Source of the DNA: Polyrhizophydium stewartii
Taxonomy: Eukaryota > Chytridiomycota > Chytridiomycetes > Rhizophydiales
Direction of reading: 5' to 3'
DNA: 10,089 nt
Assembly (NCBI GenBank): GCA_027604665.1
Contig: JADGIZ010000687.1
Span: 1 to 10,089, forward strand
Positions 1 through 10,085 of the stretch are shown piece by piece. The notes under the pieces were generated by a model. The model was not told the origin of the DNA, made no database searches, and saw nothing but the letters and a program-made list of their open reading frames with translations. A program made the position numbers and the translations under genes. The number at the start of each line of letters is the position of its first letter. Position 1 is the first letter of the stretch.

Positions 1-3000
1 CTCGGGGGCTGGGGCCGCGGCGACGGCAGCACACAAGGCAGGCTGCTGTCGGACACGGCCGGTGCGACGGGCCAGGCACGCGGCCCTGCAGGCGGTGCCG
101 ACGCTGACGCGGCACTGGGCGTCGGCGGCGATCTCGGCGTGGACGCCGACGGCGCACTCGCTCGTCTCGCTCGGCCTGCTGGCGTCGATGCTGGGTCGTC
201 TGCGGCGCACCAGCCTGCGCAGCTGGGAAGCGGCGATCCGTCGGTGAATGCGACGCCCGACGACGCGCTGGTGTGGCATACAGTGCTGTCAGGCATGCCC
301 GCACTCGAGAAGCAAGCCGTTGCAAGAGCACTGGGCATCAAAGATGTCGACCATACTTCTGAATCCGAGTTGCATCGCAAGGTCCTTGAGCATCCCGAGT
401 TTGTGCAGCTCGGCGACGCGGCCAAGCTCCAGCTTCTGCTCCGATACAAGTCGCACAATATCACCGACGAGACCATCAAGAATTTGCCCACGCACTTTCT
501 CCGGAGTCTCTCCAGCAAGTTCCTTGGCCACCGTGATGGTAGAAACCAGGAACTTCGTGAGGGCATCTTGTCGAATCCTGGCTTCCGCAAGCAGATCGAG
601 CGAGTGCGAGAGCATGGCATGACACTGGAGCCGCCTGATGATGCTGAGCGCATCACGCAATGTGAGGCATGCGCCATGCACGCCGATCCTGCTTGTGCGG
701 CGAATTGCAGGCTGACCGCATCTTTGCCAACCAAAGTGCTCGCTCGTCTCATGCAGTTCATCGACGTCGATGCTGAGTCGTCTGCAACACACCATCCAAC
801 GCAGCTGGGAAGCGGCGATCCGTCGGTGAATGCGACGCCCGACGACGCGCTGGTGTGGCATACAGTGCTGTCAGGCATGCCCGCACTCGAGAAGCAAGCC
901 GTTGCAAGAGCACTGGGCATCAAAGATGTCGACCATACTTCTGAATCCGAGTTGCATCGCAAGGTCCTTGAGCATCCCGAGTTTGTGCAGCTCGGCGACG
1001 CGGCCAAGCTCCAGCTTCTGCTCCGATACAAGTCGCACAATATCACCGACGAGACCATCAAGAATTTGCCCACGCACTTTCTCCGGAGTCTCTCCAGCAA
1101 GTTCCTTGGCCACTGTAATGGCACGATCGAGGAGCTTCGTGAGGGCATCTTGCCGAGCCCTGGCTTCCGCAAGCAGATCGAGCGCGTGCGCGAGCATGGC
1201 ATGACTCTGGAGCCGCCTGATGATGGTAAGCGCATCACGCAATGTGAGGCGTGTGCCATGCGCGCCGATCCTGCTTGTGCGAAGAATCGCAGGCTGACCG
1301 CATCTCTGGCAACCAAAGTGCTCGCTCGTCTCATGCAGTTCATCGACGTCGATGCTGAGTCGTCTGCAACACACCATCCAACGCAGCTGGGAAGCGGCCA
1401 TCCGTCGGTGAATGCGACGCCCGGCGACATGCCGGCGTGGCATACAGTGCTGTCAGACATGCCCACATTCGAGAAGCGCGCCATCGCAAAGGCACTGGGC
1501 ATCAAGTCTGTCGACCATACTTCTGACTCTAAGTTGCATCGCAAGGTCCTTGAGCATCCCGAGTTTGTGCAGCTCGGCGACGCGGCCAAGCTCCAGCTTC
1601 TGCTCCGATACAAGTCGCACAATATCACCGACGAGACCATCAAGAATTTGCCCACGCACTTTCTCCGGAGTCTCTCCAGCAAGTTCCTTGGCCACCGTGA
1701 TGGTAGAAACCAGGAACTTCGTGAGGGCATCTTGTCGAATCCTGGCTTCCGCAAGCAGATCGAGCGTGTGCGCGAGCATGGCATGACACTGGAGCCGCCT
1801 GATGATGCTGAGCGCATCGCGCGATGTGAGGCGTGCGCTATCCACGATCCTGCTTGTGCGGCTAATCGCAGGCTGACCGCACCTCTGCCAACCAAAGTTC
1901 TCGCTCGTCTCACACAGCCTGTTGGCGTCGATGCTGGGTCGCTTGCGGCACAACAGCCAGCGCAGGCGGCCAGCGGCGATCTCTCAGCAGACGGGATGCC
2001 CAGCAACGACAAGCCGACATGGCGCATGGTGCTATCACGCACGGTTGCGTTCGAGAAGCAAGCCGTCGCAAAGGCACTCGGGGCCAAAAATGCCAGCAAG
2101 ATGTCGGCCGGCAAGGCTGAGCACATGATCGTCACAAACCAAGTATTCTCCAAGGTCAGCAATGAATCAAAACTCAAGTTTCTCCTGGCATACCGACCAC
2201 ACAACATCACCGAAGATACGATCAATGATCTGCCGAAAGACTATTTAAAATACCTCGCCAGAAAGTTTGATGTACACACAAGAGCATCTTTGGATTCCTT
2301 GCAAAGAGCAATCCTGTCGAGTGCCGGCTTCCACAAGCAGATCGAGCGAGTGCACAAGCATGGCATGACTCTGGAGCCGCCTGATGGTTTTGCTGAGTGC
2401 ATCACGCAATGTAGGGCATGAGCTATGCACGCCGATCCTGCTTGTGCAGCGAATCGCAGGCTGACCGCATCTCTGGCAACCAAAGCGCTCGCTCGCATCG
2501 AGCAGCTCATCGGCGTCGATGCTGGGTCGTCTGCGACACACCGGTCGGTGCAAGCGGGCAGCGGCGATTTCCTTGCATATGCGACGCCCGGCGACTTGCC
2601 GGCGTGGCGCACAGTGCTGTCAGACATGCCCACATTCGAGAAGCGCGCCGTTGCAAAGACACTGGGCATCAAAAATGCCCATATCTTTTCAGACTTGGTT
2701 TTGAGTTACAAGATCCTTGTCTATCCAGCGTTTGTGCAGCTCAGCGACGCCGCGAAGCTCCAGCTTCTACTCCGGTTCAAGTCGCACAATATCACCGACC
2801 AAATCATCGAGGGTCTGCCATGGAACTTTCTCATTCATCTCTCAGACAGGTTTCTCGGTCGCCGTGATGGCACAAACAAGGAGCTTCGCAAACATCTCTT
2901 GTCGAGCCCTGGCTTCCGCAAGCAGATCGAGCGTGTGCACGAGCATGGCATGACTCTGGAGCCGCCTGTTGATGATGGTGAGCGCATCGCGCGATGTGAG

Positions 3001-3822
3001 GCATGCGCCATGCGCGCCGATCCTGCTTGTGCGGCGAATCGCAGGCTGACCGCATCTCTGGCAACCAAAGCACTCGCTCGTCTCATGCAGTTCATCGACG
3101 TCGATGCTGGGTCGTCTGCGACACACCATCCAACGCAGCTGGGAAGCGGCGATCCGTCGGTGGATGTGACGCCCGGCGACGCGCCGGCGTGGCATACAGT
3201 GCTGTCAGGCATGCCCGCATTCGAGAAGCAAGCCGTTGCAAGGGCACTGGGCATCAAAGATGTCGACCACATTCCTGAGTCCGAGTTGCATCGCAAGATC
3301 CTTGAGCATCCCGTGTTTGTGCAGCTCGGCGACGCGGCCAAGCTCCAGCTTCTGCTCCGATACAAGTCGCACAATATCACCGACGAGACCATCAAGAATT
3401 TGCCCACGCACTTTCTCCGGAGTCTCTCCAGCAAGTTCCTTGGCCACCGTGATGGTAGAAACCAGGAACTTCGTGAGGGCATCTTGTCGAATCCTGGCTT
3501 CCGCAAGCAGATCGAGCGAGTGCGAGAGCATGGCATGACACTGGAGCCGCCTGATGATGCTGAGCGCATCGCGCGATGTGAGGCATGCGCCATGCGCGCC
3601 GATCCTGCTTGTGCGGCGAATCGCAGGCTGACCGCATCTCTGCCAACAGCACGCGATGGGGTAGTTTTGGCGACGCCTGATATCAACGCTGAGTCCAAGA
3701 ACGCAATCGACACACGCGAACCATCGAGCTCGACTTCAGAGCTCCCCTCTCATCCGCTTCCATCCACGGCAGTCGCTGGCGGCTCCACGGAGATGCTGAC
3801 GCTTCACAACAAGCCCCTGTGA
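1..3822 (+). CDS. Tandem-repeat protein of unknown function, six exon-intron units, 5' end outside window
   Basis: I do not recognise this protein. Frame 1 is open from base 1 with no ATG before 295, so the true start lies upstream of the window. The proposed exons are <1-661, 737-1243, 1319-1825, 1898-2410, 2486-2995, 3071-3577 and 3650-3822. All introns are phase 1, and the spliced product is at least ~1125 residues. A Gly/Ala/Asp-rich leader (1-154) precedes six units of 169-171 residues, and a Ser/Pro-rich tail of ~57 residues ends at TGA 3820-3822. Conserved stretches per unit include EKQAVARALGIKDVD, LQLLLRYKSHNITDETI, LPTHFLRSLSSKFLG, GFRKQIERV and HGMTLEPP. Differences between units are often conservative (L/F, V/I, R/K) and indels are multiples of three, which supports this frame. 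No signal peptide or membrane segment is visible. Codon use is more AT-rich than in the flanking genes. Without splicing, the frame would be cut by TGA at 2419-2421 into two products. Confidence 0.7.
155..736 (+). repeat. Repeat unit 1 (exon part 155-661, putative intron 662-736)
   Basis: Homology to the other units begins at about 154-155, just where the coding exon would begin after the intron acceptor in later units. No AG acceptor is present here, so unit 1 is fused directly to the Gly/Ala-rich leader. The first ~50 bases (155-220) are diverged. From about 220 the unit is almost identical to unit 2 for roughly 300 bases. The putative intron starts GTGAGG, has CTGAC at 712-716 and ends AAAG at 736 (75 bp, phase 1). 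Confidence 0.85.
737..1318 (+). repeat. Repeat unit 2 (exon 737-1243, putative intron 1244-1318)
   Basis: Length is 582 bp, same as unit 1. The first ~370 bases of the exon core match unit 1 nearly base for base. The distal third instead resembles unit 5: it reads GAGCTTCG, GAGCCCTGG and GACTCTGG where units 1, 3 and 6 read GAACTTCG, GAATCCTGG and GACACTGG. The putative intron is 75 bp, starts GTGAGG and ends AAAG. Confidence 0.85.
1319..1897 (+). repeat. Repeat unit 3 (exon 1319-1825, putative intron 1826-1897)
   Basis: The proximal exon part differs from units 1 and 2 (DMPTFEKRAIAKALGIKSVD, shared partly with unit 5). The middle is identical to units 1 and 2, and the distal part carries the GAACTTCG/GAATCCTGG version shared with units 1 and 6. 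The putative intron is one codon-length shorter (72 bp) but keeps GTGAGG, CTGAC and the AAAG end, so the reading frame is unaffected. Confidence 0.85.
1898..2485 (+). repeat. Repeat unit 4, diverged core (exon 1898-2410, putative intron 2411-2485 containing the TGA)
   Basis: This is the most diverged unit over its exon core (for example KALGAKNASKMSAGKAEH and LPKDYLKYLARKFDVH), yet it keeps the spacing of hydrophobic positions, the NIT motif and LPxxxLxxLxxxF. The last ~90 exon bases (GFHKQIERVHKHGMTLEPP) and the intron are close to the other units. The intron begins GTAGGG instead of GTGAGG, so GT is kept. It contains TGA at 2419-2421 where the other units have TGC, and ends AAAG at 2485, 75 bp in all. 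Confidence 0.8.
2486..3070 (+). repeat. Repeat unit 5 (exon 2486-2995, putative intron 2996-3070)
   Basis: Moderately diverged in the exon core (KTLGIKNAHIFSDLVLSYK, LPWNFLIHLSDRFLG) but with all landmark motifs. It has one extra codon in the distal part (PPVDDGER against PPDDGKR or PPDDAER). The distal part is of the unit 2 type. The putative intron is 75 bp, starts GTGAGG, carries CTGAC and ends AAAG. Confidence 0.85.
3071..3649 (+). repeat. Repeat unit 6, last copy (exon 3071-3577, putative intron 3578-3649)
   Basis: The exon closely matches units 1 and 3, including the GAACTTCG/GAATCCTGG distal part. Its distal GAGCGAGTGCGAGAGCATGG is shared exactly with unit 1. Homology continues through the putative intron and stops at its 3' end: other units read CCAACCAAAG and this one reads CCAACAG, after which the sequence is unrelated to the array. 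The intron is 72 bp, phase 1, with a stronger CAG acceptor. Confidence 0.8.
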
Positions 3823-3913: not shown

Positions 3914-4312
3914 ATGGCATCCGCCGATCCTGCCGCCATCGAGCAGCCGTCTCCTCACAAGCCTCGATCGCGCAAGCCCGCCACGCCGGCCGCGCCAGCA
4001 GTTCCCGAGACAGACTGCGCATCAGAACCGGCCGCAGCGACACCTGAACCAAGTGCTGCCGACTGGACCACGGCGCTTGCGAGGCTCGGCGTCGCACAGC
4101 TGCAAGGCGTGTGCCGGTCGCTCGGCATCTCGACAGGCGGCACAAAGCCGCAGCTCCTTGAGCGCGCACGGTGCCGCAGTCGATCCTCGCCATCGACATT
4201 GGGCTGGCCAACTTGGGCTTTGCGCACATCCGGCTGTCGCGCGGCGGATCTGGCGGGCGGCAACCAGACCAGGCAGGCCAAGCGGCGATGCCGGGTGTTT
4301 ATTCAGTCATGA
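3914..4312 (+). pseudogene. Broken SAP-motif / Cce1-Ydc2-type Holliday-junction resolvase remnant
   Basis: From ATG 3914, frame 2 gives 132 residues. It has a Pro/Ala-rich, basic N-terminus (HKPRSRKP at ~15-22) and then a SAP-like motif at about residues 53-86 (LARLGVAQLQGVCRSLGI...TKPQLLERA), a helix-extended-loop-helix DNA-binding element. After position ~4165 the sense continues in frame 1: SILAIDIGLANLGFAHI at 4180-4230. This resembles the first beta-strand and catalytic-Asp motif (Asp at 4195-4197) of fungal mitochondrial resolvases of the Cce1/Ydc2 family, RNase H fold, whose members often carry an N-terminal SAP-like element. The switch needs a 1- or 2-base frameshift, and I find no workable GT-AG intron for it. 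The remaining ~200 residues of the catalytic domain with the other acidic residues are missing, because the convergent gene begins there. Frame 2 itself stops at TGA 4310-4312. It could instead be a short SAP-only gene. Confidence 0.5.
4298..4303 (-). promoter_or_regulatory. AATAAA polyadenylation signal overlapping the stop codon
   Basis: On the minus strand the last codons read ATG ACT GAA TAA AC, so AATAAA spans the TAA stop (4301-4299). The hexamer matches the canonical eukaryotic cleavage and polyadenylation signal. Its position implies a 3' UTR of only a few tens of bases, running into the convergent SAP frame. The match could be by chance, but no other AATAAA is obvious just downstream. 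Confidence 0.4.
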
Positions 4313-7300
4313 CGGACGGGGCACTCAACTCCTCAACATCAGCATCGGGATCCAAGCCCCCACCCTCAGTCTCTGCCCCGGTTTCGGTGGCGGCAGAGAC
4401 GCTTGTCGCAGCGACGGCAGCAGCAGCGGCAGGATCGGCAGCTTCAGCAGGAGAAGGCGGCCGCATCACAGCCATCGTCGTCGTCACGGTGTTGACCTTG
4501 AACGCCACCGTGCGGCTCGAGATGATGCTTGTCGAGTTATCCCACAAGAAGATGAACACGCCAAACCGGCCGGTGATGTCCATGCTCGCTGACACGGCGC
4601 CGCCGACCATGCGCGCCGAGTTGAGCCGCGCGGGCGGGACGACCATCTGCCGGTGCAGCGAGCCCGAGGCCATAAACTCGGCATTGAGGTTGACGACGGA
4701 CGGCACCGCGGAGCCTGCCTGTCCAGGTGCACCAGCTGACGCCGCGGTCGTGCCGAGGAGCGCCGAGCGCTGCGAGTCGACCTTGGATCGGGCAGCGGCG
4801 AAGCGCGACGACAGCATGGATGCCACGGTGCGCGGTGGCGACGCTGCTGAGCCCGCCGGCGGCGGCGGCGAAGAGACAGACTGCGCTGGCGCTGGTGCCG
4901 CTGGGTCGCGGCCCACCGCGGCCGCCAGCCTCTCCGATAACGACGCGCGCGGCGGCATCGGAGGCGGCACGTTGCCATGCAACTGCTCCCCGCTCGATCC
5001 AAGATCCGCGCCGTCGCCGCCGTGCGCGGCATCGAGCGTCGACGTGTCTGAGTGGACGTCCGCCCGCGAGTCCTCATGGCGCGCAGACGCATGGGACGGG
5101 TCGGCCACCCCGGCATTCGACGAGCGGCGCTGCGACCCACCTGCAGACGCCGCGAACGCATACACGGGCGGCTCGAATGGCGTCGCAGGCGGAATGCTGA
5201 CAGCATCGACCAGCGGCTCGTAAAAGATGCCAAAGTTGATATCCGACCCGCCCGTGGTGAACTCCCACTCGAGCACGGTGCGCGTCGCCCCGCCGTCCAT
5301 CACGGCGTCGGCGCCAGCCGTCGAGGCGTCGTAGACGATGGGCAGGGCAAAGTAGGTGTTGCGCTGGATGGCGACCTCGGCGCATGCGCCGATGCGCGCC
5401 AGCTCGACGATCTGCGTGGACGGCGCCTGACCACCGGCATGCTGCGCCTCGTGCTCGGCCAGCGACTGCGATGACCCCTGGGGCGAGTTGCGCGTCGCCA
5501 TGCCAACAAGCCCAAGCGAGCCCAATCCGGCGGCAGCAGCAGAGGCGACCAGCACAGCAGGCGGCTCGAGATTGTGCACGAGGCACTTGTACGCAAAGCT
5601 CTTGGAGACCTTCTTGCTCTGGATCATGAGATTGTCCCACACGAGTACAAAGACGCCCGAGCCGAATCCCGAGACAAGCGCGGTGCCGTACGCCGGCCCC
5701 GTGTACGACTGGACGGCCGCGACAGGGAACAGGTCGCGCGACGTGTCCGACGACGGCGCAAACGGCAGCAGCTGCACGACGGGCCGCTGGCTCGTGTGCG
5801 GGTTGTCGGGCACAAAGATGATGCCGAAACGGGCGGCGGCCTCGGAGCGCATCATGTGCTCCCACTCGAGCACCACGGCTGGGCCAAACGCAGCGCGGTT
5901 GAACGGGATCTCGACGCGCACAATGTCCTTGGGGTGCAGCACCCGCTCAATGTACGGCTCGCGGCCAAACTCGGTCATCTCGAACGCAAGCGAGCGGCGC
6001 GGCGCAATGATCGAGATCTCGCCCGACGATGCATGCGCCGCTGCGCCGGCGTTCGCGGCAACCTGCGCGGCCGCGTTGGCCGCGACGGCAGCGACCGCGG
6101 CGGCCGCACGTGCACCCGCTGCAATAGTCGCAAGCGTCTTGGGCCCAAGAACCGGGGCCGACGCCGATGGCGCATGCTGCAATCCAAGCGCGCTGGCAAT
6201 GGACGCCGACGCGGACCGCTCCTGCGCGCCGTCGGCCGCAGCCGTGGCCGATCTCGCCTGGCGGCGCGGCAGCGATGGCTGCGACCCGGCGTTGCCGTCG
6301 CCAGGTGTCTCCAGCGGCGCATGGCGCGCAGACACGTCTCCGTCCGTGCCAACGAGCTCATAACTGGCATCGTCGCCCATATCGTCCTGTGCATCTTGTG
6401 ACGCCTGCTGCGATGCCGACCGCCCTGGCAGCCACGATGCGTTGCTGGTCTTGCGGTTCTTCATCAAATAGTTGGCCGTGTTCCCGAGATAGTTCTTGAT
6501 CTTGTCGATGCGGCGGCCATCGGCCTCGGGGGCCGATCCTGCTCCCTGGTTCCCAGCAAACGCCGTGGCCCAACCGGTGCCGGCAAGCGCACTGGAGCCG
6601 CCGGCTCCGGCAAGCGTCGTGCCCGACGCATTGGATCCGCCGCCGCCAAAGGGAAACACGCGGCGCCGGCGCACCTCGCCGGTCGCCTCTGCCGCCGCGT
6701 CACTAAAGTCGCGCGACAGCTGGTCGAGATCCTCGATAAACTGCTTGAGCTTGCGGCAGCTCTGCGTGTCGACCTCGAGCTTCTGCAAGTCGGGAGACAG
6801 GTGCGCGACGATGGTCACGCGGCACGATCCCTTGGGGTCCGCCGGAAGCGGCACAACGTGGTATCCGTAAATGTACACGCATGCTTGATGCTGCTGCTGT
6901 TGCTTTCCATCGCCGGCCGTCGCCGCGGCATCTTCGGGCGTCCTGGCAAGCCCCGCCGGCTGCGGGCTCGTCGACGGCGCCGCCTGCTTGGCCTTGGACG
7001 AGAGCGACGCCGACGACGACATGGGTCGCGGGCTGCGCAGCGCGGCAGCAGATCCCGACGGCGAGGGCGTCAGCGTGGCCGCAGCAGGCGTCGCTCCGCC
7101 ATCTGCAGGCACATCAACCGGCCGCGACCGGGAAACCACGGGACTGGCGCGCTCGCCGCCGTCGGCAGGGACACGCAGGTGGCGTGAGACGTCCGGGTCC
7201 TGGTCTCCGTCGTCGCCGTCGCTCGCGGCGCCCTCCGACTCGGCCACACGGCCGCCATCAGCGCCCGCCTCAGACGCCGCATCCAGTGCACCGCCGACAT

Positions 7301-10085
7301 CGGCTTCAGAGGGCCGGTGCAGATCGACAGTTGGTGCGGGGTCGGCAGCCGTGCTGTCCGGGGCCGGGGTATCAGCGGCACCCGGGATCGGTGCTGCATC
7401 GTCCGATCCCAACGCGGTAGTGAGGGCAGCCGCGGTGCTGGTGCTCGCCGACGATGCCGCGGCAGCAGAAGCAACACCACCAGTCGTCCCAGCAGCAGCC
7501 GAGCCTTGCCCGCCGCCTGCCTGGATCGATCCAATCGAACGCATGACAAAGATGCGCTCGACGCCCAGATCGTCGCCGAGGCTCTCGAGCGACGCCGCAA
7601 TCTCGGCAGCCACCTCCGCCTCGACATCCGCAGGGCCGCTGCCCGCCGCTCCATCGCCGGCGGTGCGGCGGAGCGTGCGGCGCGTTGCAAACACGAGCAA
7701 GTTCTTCTCCATCCCGCGTCCAAACCGGAACTTTGGCGCAAGCACGCCGCGCGGCGCGTCAAACTCGTGCACGGACCTGGCGCCTTCAAACGTCTCGTAC
7801 ACATGCGCAAAGTGCGCCGGGTTCAGCAGCACGCGGGCCACGCGCTCGGCGTCGCATGCAATCGTCACGAACGCGCGCACCATGTCCGTCGAGCCGAGGA
7901 CGCCCAGGACGCGCTTCTGCACGTGCACGCCGTTGCGATTGCGGATGGTCTTCCAGCCGCTGGAGGCCGGCGCCGTCTGCGACGAGCCCACAGCAGCTGT
8001 CGCAGCAGTCGAGGAGCTCGAAGGGGTCGACGGGGCTGTAGGGGCTGTAGCGGTTCCAGATGCAGCGGTTCCAGATCCCGACACAGACGGCGCGAGTGAC
8101 AGCGGTTGCTGCTGCGGCGATGACGACGCTGCCGCAGCAGGCGCTGCAGCACCAAGACTCGGCGCGCTGCCCGACTCGCTGCCGCCAGGCTCGTCGACAT
8201 CGCGCAAGGCGGGGTTGGAAGCGCTGGAAGAGTTGACCGGATCGTCGGGCTCGTTGACAAGCGCCAAGAACGAGCTGACGAGCGACGCGTCCATCTCGTC
8301 GACTGCCTTGGCGTCCGCCAGTTGGAGCGGCAGAGTGACATCAAACGTCGTGCCCTGGAGCAGGTCGCGCCGCGCAGCTTTCGGCCCGCGCAGGCGCGAC
8401 TCCCATAAAGCCGAGGCGCGGTCGACCAGGGTCGGGCGAGGCGGGCCGGATGCGGCGACGGCCGGCGCAGGCGCTTGCTTGGATGCAGCCAGGGCCACAG
8501 CGGCCATTTCCTTTTTGGTCTGGGAGCGGACGATGAACTCCTGTTGCGGCGCGAGCGAGAAACAAGCGTGCACACGGAGACACGGATTAGAACGGATCCT
8601 CACACGCACGCTCTCTGTGATCGGAACAAGCTCAGTCGACTGCGATGCCGGCACGCACCTCGGCCGATGGCTGCATCTGGGGGAGGAAAAAGGTGCGCCA
8701 GCTCGGCAGGACCCAGAGCTCGAGGAAGGTCTTGCGGACAATCGACGCAATGGCCGAGTTGATCATTCCGCGCACAAACATGGTGCCGTCGCCGCCCGTC
8801 TGGTTTCCTGTTTCGACCGTGAACGAGATGCCCGGATCCTCGACAAAGGCAACGCCGATCATGTCGGGCCACAGCAGCGACGGCGCACGAACGCGGATCT
8901 GTGGAGGCATTGGCGAGGAGGGAGGGGTCAGCGTTCTGCCGAGCGAGCAACGTGTGTGTGGCAACGGGCAGCGGCACTCACAACGCCGGTGAACTGGTTC
9001 AAGTAGACGCGGGCCGGGACCGTGATGTTGCGCGACAGTGTGACCTCGAGCAAGATGGAGCCGCCGCCCTCGTACGAGACCTCTGCCTCACCAAAGACAG
9101 CAAGGTCCTTTGTGACGCCCTTGAGCAGGCGGATGCCGTGGATGCTGGGCGAGTTGTCGCCGAGCGACAGCTCGCGGATCTGGATCGATGTCTGCACGAC
9201 GGGAAGCCGAGTCAGTGTGTGAGCAACGCCGGCCTCGGATGAGCGAAGAGTGTTGCGACAAGGCCGCAGAGGCAGAGCAGTCATGCTCCAAGAGCAGCAA
9301 TGCCAGCAGCACAAGAAACAGGGGCAGCCAAGGCTGTGAAAGGGACCAGCGCACAAGCCACGTTCACCCACCACAAACGAGTTGTTCTTGAGGCGCATGT
9401 TCATCTTCTTGGACATGCGCTGGGTCCAGCTCTCCTTGAAGTGCTGGCTGGCGCGGAAGCTCAGGAAGAAGCGGTGGAGGGCCACGTTGAGCCAGTGGCA
9501 GGGCTCCATCTCGCCAACGGCGACGGGCTCGGACTCGTGGGCGGCGGGCAGCGGCGACGTTGCTGACGTGGCAGCGGCGGCGGCCGAGGTGGCGGCAGCG
9601 AGGGTGGGCTGCCCAGCGCCGGCAGAGGCATCGGCGGCAGCGGCGGCGCCGGAAATAGACGAAGCCGAGTAGCGCAGCGACTGCATGGCCTCGAGCGTGG
9701 AGCGAGCGACGGGGCGGCCGGCGACGACGGGGGTGTCCGAGTCTCGTGGCGTGAGCTCACGCGCCAGGAAGGCGACGATGGCGGCGGGCCAGGGGCGGAG
9801 GTGCTCGGGCAGGCCGGCGGCGACGGGCGGGGCCGGGCGGCCCGGCAGCGACGTGCGGCCGAGGCGCAGGGCGTCGTGAGGCGGGATGGGCGGCAGCTGG
9901 GTCGGGACGGGGTCTGCGGACGGGCGGTCGCCGGGCGACGGCGGCGTGAAGCGGTGGCCGGGCTTGGCCAGCGAGCGCACGAGCCAGACGAGCACGGCGG
10001 CCTCGAGCAGCAGCGTGAGCAGGGCGCCAAAGACGGCGCCGCGCACAAAGGTGGCCGTGGCGCCGAAGAAGGCGAGCACGCTCAT
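4299..10085 (-). CDS. Membrane-anchored SMP-START-GOLD-GOLD lipid-transfer protein (four exons)
   Basis: Exons are 10085-9372, 9191-8982, 8898-8659 and 8540-4299; all introns are phase 0 and the product is ~1801 residues. A transmembrane segment (~14-36) matches the N-terminal anchor of TEX2/Nvj2-type ER proteins. An SMP domain at ~194-385 (HWLNVALHRFFLSF, IQIRELSLGDNSPSI, VAFVEDPGISF, LPSWRTFFLP) is of the tubular lipid-transfer type of ER contact-site proteins. A START-like domain follows at ~582-997 (GWKTIRNRNGVHVQKRV, FVMRSI, YIYGYHVVPLP, DTQSCRKLKQFIEDL) with a ~210-residue low-complexity insertion. Two SEC14L-like GOLD domains follow at ~1227-1377 (VLEWEH, VFVLVWDN) and ~1429-1740 (VLEWEF, VFIFLWDN), the second with a ~155-residue insertion. 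I infer ER-tethered lipid transfer. ATG 10085 has a G at -3 and precedes the anchor. The alternative is two genes: an SMP protein ending at TGA 8634-8632, and a START-GOLD-GOLD protein from ATG 8507, which has a good context (G at -3 and +4). Confidence 0.8.
8541..8658 (-). other. Intron 3 joining the SMP exons to the START-GOLD exon
   Basis: The 118 bp run from donor GAG|GTGCGTGCC (at 8658) to acceptor GCCGCAACAG|GAG (ending 8541). The branch-like CTAAT is at 8590-8586. Both ends are phase 0, so QPSAE joins EFIVRSQTKKEMAAV in frame. Without splicing the SMP frame stops at TGA 8634-8632. This intron decides between one fused gene and two adjacent genes. Confidence 0.6.
8899..8981 (-). other. 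Intron 2 of the SMP-START-GOLD gene
   Basis: The 83 bp run from donor GTGAGTGCC (at 8981) to acceptor GCCTCCACAG (ending 8899), phase 0 at both ends. Read-through would stop at TGA 8930-8928. Joining NQFTGV to IRVRAPSLLW continues the SMP domain without loss. Confidence 0.8.
9192..9371 (-). other. Intron 1 of the SMP-START-GOLD gene
   Basis: The 180 bp between donor GTGGGTGAA (at 9371) and acceptor CGTCGTGCAG (ending 9192) have CTGAC about 20 bases before the acceptor. Length is a multiple of three and there is no in-frame stop, so simple translation runs through it. The translated stretch is Cys/Trp-rich and breaks the SMP domain between KNNSFV and TSIQIRELSLG; removing it restores the usual SMP spacing. 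Confidence 0.75.

Follow-up and report, generated by a model that had tools for sequence, protein, structure and literature searches.

Contact-site lipid transfer proteins have, to our knowledge, mostly been studied with one kind of lipid carrier per chain. Among the described systems, PDZD8 has an N-terminal membrane segment, and GOLD domains are partnered by a Sec14 domain in SEC14L proteins and by an acyl-CoA-binding domain in ACBD3. The association of SMP domains with contact sites is described as exclusive (PMC8667587). Wideman et al. (2018) reported an SMP paralogue, left without a name, that is confined to flagellated fungi; their tree places it apart from PDZD8, Nvj2, Mdm12, and Mdm34 (PMC6069729). 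The stretch of DNA analyzed here, termed the window, comprises 10,089 nucleotides (nt) and is one complete contig (C681) of the 12.86-Mb, 690-contig assembly of Polyrhizophydium stewartii. An earlier note on this DNA had pointed to protists for relatives; taxonomy look-up assigns the organism to the chytrid fungi, order Rhizophydiales. On its minus strand, from position 10085 to 4299, the window carries a single gene for a protein that joins SMP, START-like, and GOLD domains.

The four exons of this gene encode 1,801 amino acids, and a predicted N-terminal membrane segment, an SMP domain, a predicted START fold, and a pair of GOLD domains, one of which is recognized by predicted fold only, follow each other in an order conserved among all chytrid homologs found. 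We consider it probable that the product is a lipid transfer protein of contact sites, anchored in the endoplasmic reticulum (ER) and equipped with two different lipid carriers. Location in the ER, dimerization of the SMP domain, lipid transfer by either domain, handover between them, and a partner for the GOLD domains are what we infer from these features. The gene and its parts are as follows:

4299..10085, minus strand: whole gene, start to stop codon (exon reading, public protein, and homolog alignment)
9372..10085, minus strand: exon 1, residues 1-238 (exon reading)
9966..10076, minus strand: predicted N-terminal membrane helix, residues 4-40 (AF2 helix 4-40; KD19 2.43)
9732..9809, minus strand: conserved pre-SMP segment, residues 93-118, family consensus EH.EPWP..IVAFL (alignment, profiles, and fold)
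8668..9518, minus strand: SMP domain, residues 190-385, spanning introns 1 and 2 (profiles and predicted fold)
9192..9371, minus strand: intron 1, 180 nt, GTGGGT...GTGCAG, phase 0 (splice signals; flanking residues align in homologs)
8982..9191, minus strand: exon 2, residues 239-308 (exon reading)
8899..8981, minus strand: intron 2, 83 nt, phase 0 (splice signals and homolog alignment)
8659..8898, minus strand: exon 3, residues 309-388 (exon reading)
8541..8658, minus strand: intron 3, 118 nt, phase 0, GTGCGT...ACAG, which decides between one gene and two (splice signals and homologs)
4299..8540, minus strand: exon 4, residues 389-1801 (exon reading)
7521..7961, minus strand: START-like domain, first part, residues 582-728 (predicted fold and sequence search)
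6876..7520, minus strand: insert that splits the START-like domain, predicted to be disordered, residues 729-943, most pLDDT values below 40 (AF2)
6693..6875, minus strand: START-like domain, second part with C-terminal helix, residues 944-1004 (AF2 and fold match)
6447..6518, minus strand: conserved linker helix, residues 1063-1086, family consensus GR.I.KLKN.VGSTA.YL.K, block pLDDT 45-63 (alignment and AF2)
5553..5978, minus strand: GOLD1, residues 1243-1384 (predicted fold and profile likeness to GOLD2)
5205..5411, minus strand: GOLD2, first half, residues 1432-1500 (sequence profile and AF2)
4464..4649, minus strand: GOLD2, second half, residues 1686-1747, past a predicted disordered insert (sequence profile and AF2)

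With PDZD8 the chytrid protein shares an N-terminal membrane segment, an SMP domain, and a long C-terminal part, but it differs in possessing START and GOLD domains and in giving no PDZ or C1 match. Of the ERMES proteins Mmm1 and Mdm12, the chytrid SMP domain matches Mmm1 best, by profile as well as by fold, although Mmm1 is short whereas more than 1,400 residues with START and GOLD domains follow the SMP domain here. In contrast to ACOT11, CERT, and STARD10, the START domain is split by a predicted disordered insert and belongs to a polypeptide that also has a membrane anchor and an SMP domain. The GOLD fold is common to SEC14L2/3/4 and ACBD3, whose sequence signature GOLD2 carries, but the chytrid tandem adjoins SMP and START domains instead of a Sec14 or an acyl-CoA-binding domain. 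The flagellated-fungus paralogue is likewise an SMP protein with a taxon range that fits the chytrid family, and the text and legends of the paper do not mention START or GOLD (PMC6069729). By comparison with the text of that paper, the chytrid family may be this very paralogue and may therefore have been reported before. The earlier note knew of no described protein with the order SMP, START, GOLD, and a search of one open-access literature collection likewise found no paper describing it; in the parts consulted, papers naming both SMP and GOLD do not place them in one protein.

All three introns (180, 83, and 118 nt) are in phase 0 and bounded by GT...AG. Each contains a CTRAY site, which we take to be the branch-site consensus, located 20, 29, and 46 nt upstream of the 3′ splice sites, and such sites occur in about 5% of 60-nt windows in exon 4. 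Intron 1 is open in frame and stops cannot tell it from coding sequence; its removal therefore rests on splice signals, homologs, and the public gene model. Except for one position (M228 versus L), the joined 1,801 residues are identical to HK105_200797, the protein deposited for P. stewartii. The exon reading, together with the domain evidence below, confirms the earlier observation of four modules in one orientation joined by three phase-0 GT-AG introns. A DNA search of the P. stewartii assembly yielded no second copy of the gene.

That two adjacent genes are present, one with the SMP domain that ends near 8632 and one with START and GOLD that begins near 8520, is highly improbable. Such a split would agree with the stop that the exon 3 frame meets 8 residues beyond the donor site if intron 3 is left unspliced, and with an ATG early in exon 4. 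However, the public gene model joins identical exons, intron 3 (GTGCGT...ACAG) possesses a branch-like site, and the alignment runs gap-free across its junction in 17 of the 20 other homologs, the exceptions being a gap in P0014 and P0018 and an insertion in P0020. On the exon 4 side of the junction, 17 of 21 rows carry (D/E)..AR; other residues stand there in the window's own protein, P0002, and P0003, and P0014 has none. Furthermore, the annotation gives each of the 21 family proteins as a single chain with all four domains, these being gene models and not transcripts. The split was rejected on the continuity of the homologs and the public gene model, and by this sequence evidence a single gene, as first proposed, is well supported, the fold models being in line with it.

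Three protein searches yielded a homolog set of 21 protein clusters, one of them that of the window, and every cluster carries the name of a chytrid fungus. Orders were looked up for four of the names (Rhizophydiales, Polychytriales, and twice Chytridiales), and Spizellomyces, Powellomyces, Geranomyces, Gaertneriomyces, and Thoreauomyces belong to the Spizellomycetales; the ortholog of the saprotroph Spizellomyces punctatus is SPPG_00332. Domain order was tested with leave-one-out profiles derived from the alignment of the family. These detected the SMP domain, the two parts of START, GOLD1, and the two halves of GOLD2 in identical order in 21 of 21 proteins, so that the architecture sought in relatives is kept by all 20 other chytrid proteins. 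The membrane segment is present in 19 of 21, the gene models of P0002 and P0020 beginning downstream of it, and the parts missing within the SMP domain or at its end in P0014, P0018, and P0019 look like gene-model faults. Because the rows P0007/8, P0011/12, and P0016/17 are near-duplicates, 21 proteins are not 21 independent tests; Geranomyces variabilis and Dinochytrium kinnereticum contribute two entries each. A protein search with the START region of P0005 gave 7 matches, all of them family members found before, and a full profile search, whose scoring covered only the 7,991 candidates with the most words in common, contributed P0021 as one further chytrid and nothing outside the chytrids; as the searches were bounded by length and shared words, non-chytrid relatives could be missed. 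Most homologs carry PF26547 as a precomputed annotation. The two members from D. kinnereticum (P0014 and P0018) are divergent, and the resemblance by eye between P0018 and P0020 from Phlyctochytrium planicorne points to a duplication within the Chytridiales.

The hydrophobic N-terminal segment reaches a KD19 of 2.43 at residue 18, which bears out the membrane segment proposed earlier. Behind it, the Mmm1 fold match starts at the helix of the pre-SMP segment (model residue 101). The SMP/TULIP fold is recovered in the predicted structure, which matches Mmm1, the best match among solved SMP domains by both profile and fold, and the homologs P0016 (27.2 bits) and P0021 (26.4 bits) pass the cut-off of the Pfam MMM1 model (21.9 bits). 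The SMP domain thus stands, as a predicted fold and as a significant profile match made through these two homologs. By fold, E-Syt2 falls among the Mdm12 rows, so that fold matches leave the branch of the SMP domain unsettled. A scan of 18 members at E-values up to 0.5 gave no match for C2 domains, a trait of E-Syt and tricalbins, or for PH domains, a trait of TEX2 and Nvj2.

On ancestry, it is conceivable, at somewhat below even chances, that the protein is the chytrid ortholog of PDZD8, working at ER-endosome or ER-mitochondria contacts with START and GOLD domains in place of PDZ and C1; this does not exclude the lipid-transfer reading and is compatible with it. Its N-terminus of membrane segment and SMP domain is consistent with PDZD8, and 6 of the 21 family proteins bear the automatic name PDZ domain-containing protein 8. 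In contrast, neither PDZ nor C1 is among the Pfam matches of the same 18-member scan, the 2018 tree has a separate SMP paralogue of flagellated fungi (PMC6069729), and Mmm1 is the nearest solved SMP domain, with the reservation on SMP branches just given. The PDZ domain implied by the automatic names was rejected for want of a Pfam match in those 18 members; residues 487-574 and 1771-1801 lie outside the AF2 models.

The AF2 input consisted of 17 sequences of one family, and the two models have mean pLDDT values of 63.1 and 54.6, which are low because of long disorder. The predicted fold of the START-like domain is clear, a helix-grip with a C-terminal helix. By sequence, PDB START chains match at E-values of 0.02 and 0.04, and Polyketide_cyc2 is matched by 6 of 10 insert-trimmed members at E-values up to 10 (best 0.0088), the window's own member not being among them.

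GOLD2 is identified by sequence: with the insert removed, GOLD_2 is matched in 7 of 7 members (E-values up to 1, best 2.9e-10), and SEC14L3 (E-value 2.8e-10) and ACBD3 (E-value 6e-10) are matched as well. Of four ACBD3 entries with the GOLD2 signature, three align as two separate stretches, as expected if ACBD3 also has an insert there. GOLD1 is identified by its predicted fold and profile likeness to GOLD2, and the two GOLD domains of the earlier note are both recovered in this way. The best PDB sequence row of GOLD1, an interleukin receptor subunit (E-value 0.0009), was taken as a chance beta-sandwich match. Within the otherwise disordered GOLD2 insert lies the motif SL..RLAAAV (window 4914-4943, minus strand; family consensus RxSLxSRLAAAV), possibly a binding motif. 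The linker helix has an amphipathic moment of 0.38-0.54 in the best window of each protein, and 1% of all P0001 windows reach 0.5; given this choice of windows, the moment is weak evidence.

Several results weigh against the proposed function. The window's own protein scores 17.5-17.8 bits against MMM1, under the cut-off, and 14.6 bits against GOLD_2, whose cut-off is 28.4 bits; without the insert GOLD_2 rises to 22.9 bits (E-value 1.1e-4) and still stays below. GOLD1 alone retrieves no GOLD chain in the PDB by sequence. Pfam START is not significant, with 1 of 18 members at an E-value of 0.12 and 0 of 10 members after insert removal, so that the START call rests mainly on the predicted fold; the significant START model hit that the earlier note asked for was obtained by predicted fold and not by sequence. 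Fold matches of this domain include enzymes (aromatase/cyclase rows), and a shared START fold is no proof of a working pocket. Finally, pLDDT is below 50 at 662 of the 1,196 residues of the START and GOLD model. That the SMP domain is the sole lipid mover, with the START-like domain acting as a lipid sensor or protein-binding tether regulator and the GOLD pair serving in targeting, would agree with this divergence of START and with its insert, about 215 residues long and predicted to be disordered, both features that might be expected of a regulated module. However, all 21 family proteins retain the START core, with the predicted helix-grip fold and C-terminal helix, and we regard this alternative as doubtful.

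In an ER-anchored lipid transfer protein of contact sites with two carriers, the N-terminal helix would be inserted in the ER membrane, and the SMP domain, with its Mmm1-like predicted fold, would dimerize to form a grooved conduit beside the ER. The START domain on its long disordered linkers could be a mobile shuttle for one lipid, and the conserved linker helix together with the GOLD pair may attach the distal end to another membrane or to a protein partner. The ER contact site, the relay between carriers, and the distal GOLD tether suggested in the earlier note are reasonable as predictions. In ACBD3, the GOLD domain binds the picornavirus 3A protein, and GOLD domains can thus serve as protein-binding parts (PMC8260984). 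A relay on one chain, kept across the chytrids, in which the SMP conduit takes a lipid from the ER and passes it by the START shuttle to the GOLD-held organelle, seems unlikely to us; if true, lipid would be handed over in two steps between unrelated carriers built into the same protein.

The remainder of the window is occupied on the plus strand by an array of direct repeats (183-3647, spacing about 580 nt) inside the open frames 1-2421 and 2422-3822, which are parted by an in-frame TGA; window 2425-3819 has no Pfam match above cut-off. A similar array exists on contig C212, with most units 85-89% identical to window 250-840. From 3866 to about 4280 (plus strand) lies the 5′ portion of a gene that has a SAP domain (E-value 1.9e-7) and matches positions 1-20 of the Ydc2 resolvase model (E-value 0.012, under cut-off). 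A longer copy on C212, an open frame of 513 residues, is 89% identical where aligned. The window's copy stops just short of the 3′ end of the SMP gene and is thus a truncated duplicate or an assembly join. Elsewhere in the genome, L001 (contig C153) also encodes an SMP protein (MMM1 34.9 bits), TEX2/Nvj2-like by eye and with a PH-like stretch before the SMP domain by eye, but it is a separate gene; L002 (C293), tricalbin-like by eye, has a weak SMP match of 21.2 bits, under cut-off. Pfam genome searches for MDM10, START, and GOLD_2, made exon by exon after a loose first pass, were empty as were their controls, and therefore show no absence.

In every chytrid homolog found, a channel-like SMP domain and a pocket-like START domain, both by predicted fold, stand on one chain. 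Whether two carriers cooperate, exchange different lipids, or pass on a single lipid thereby becomes directly testable in one protein. Furthermore, the chytrid family may supply the domain content of an early-fungal SMP branch, which would help in following the changes that ER contacts underwent between fungi and animals.
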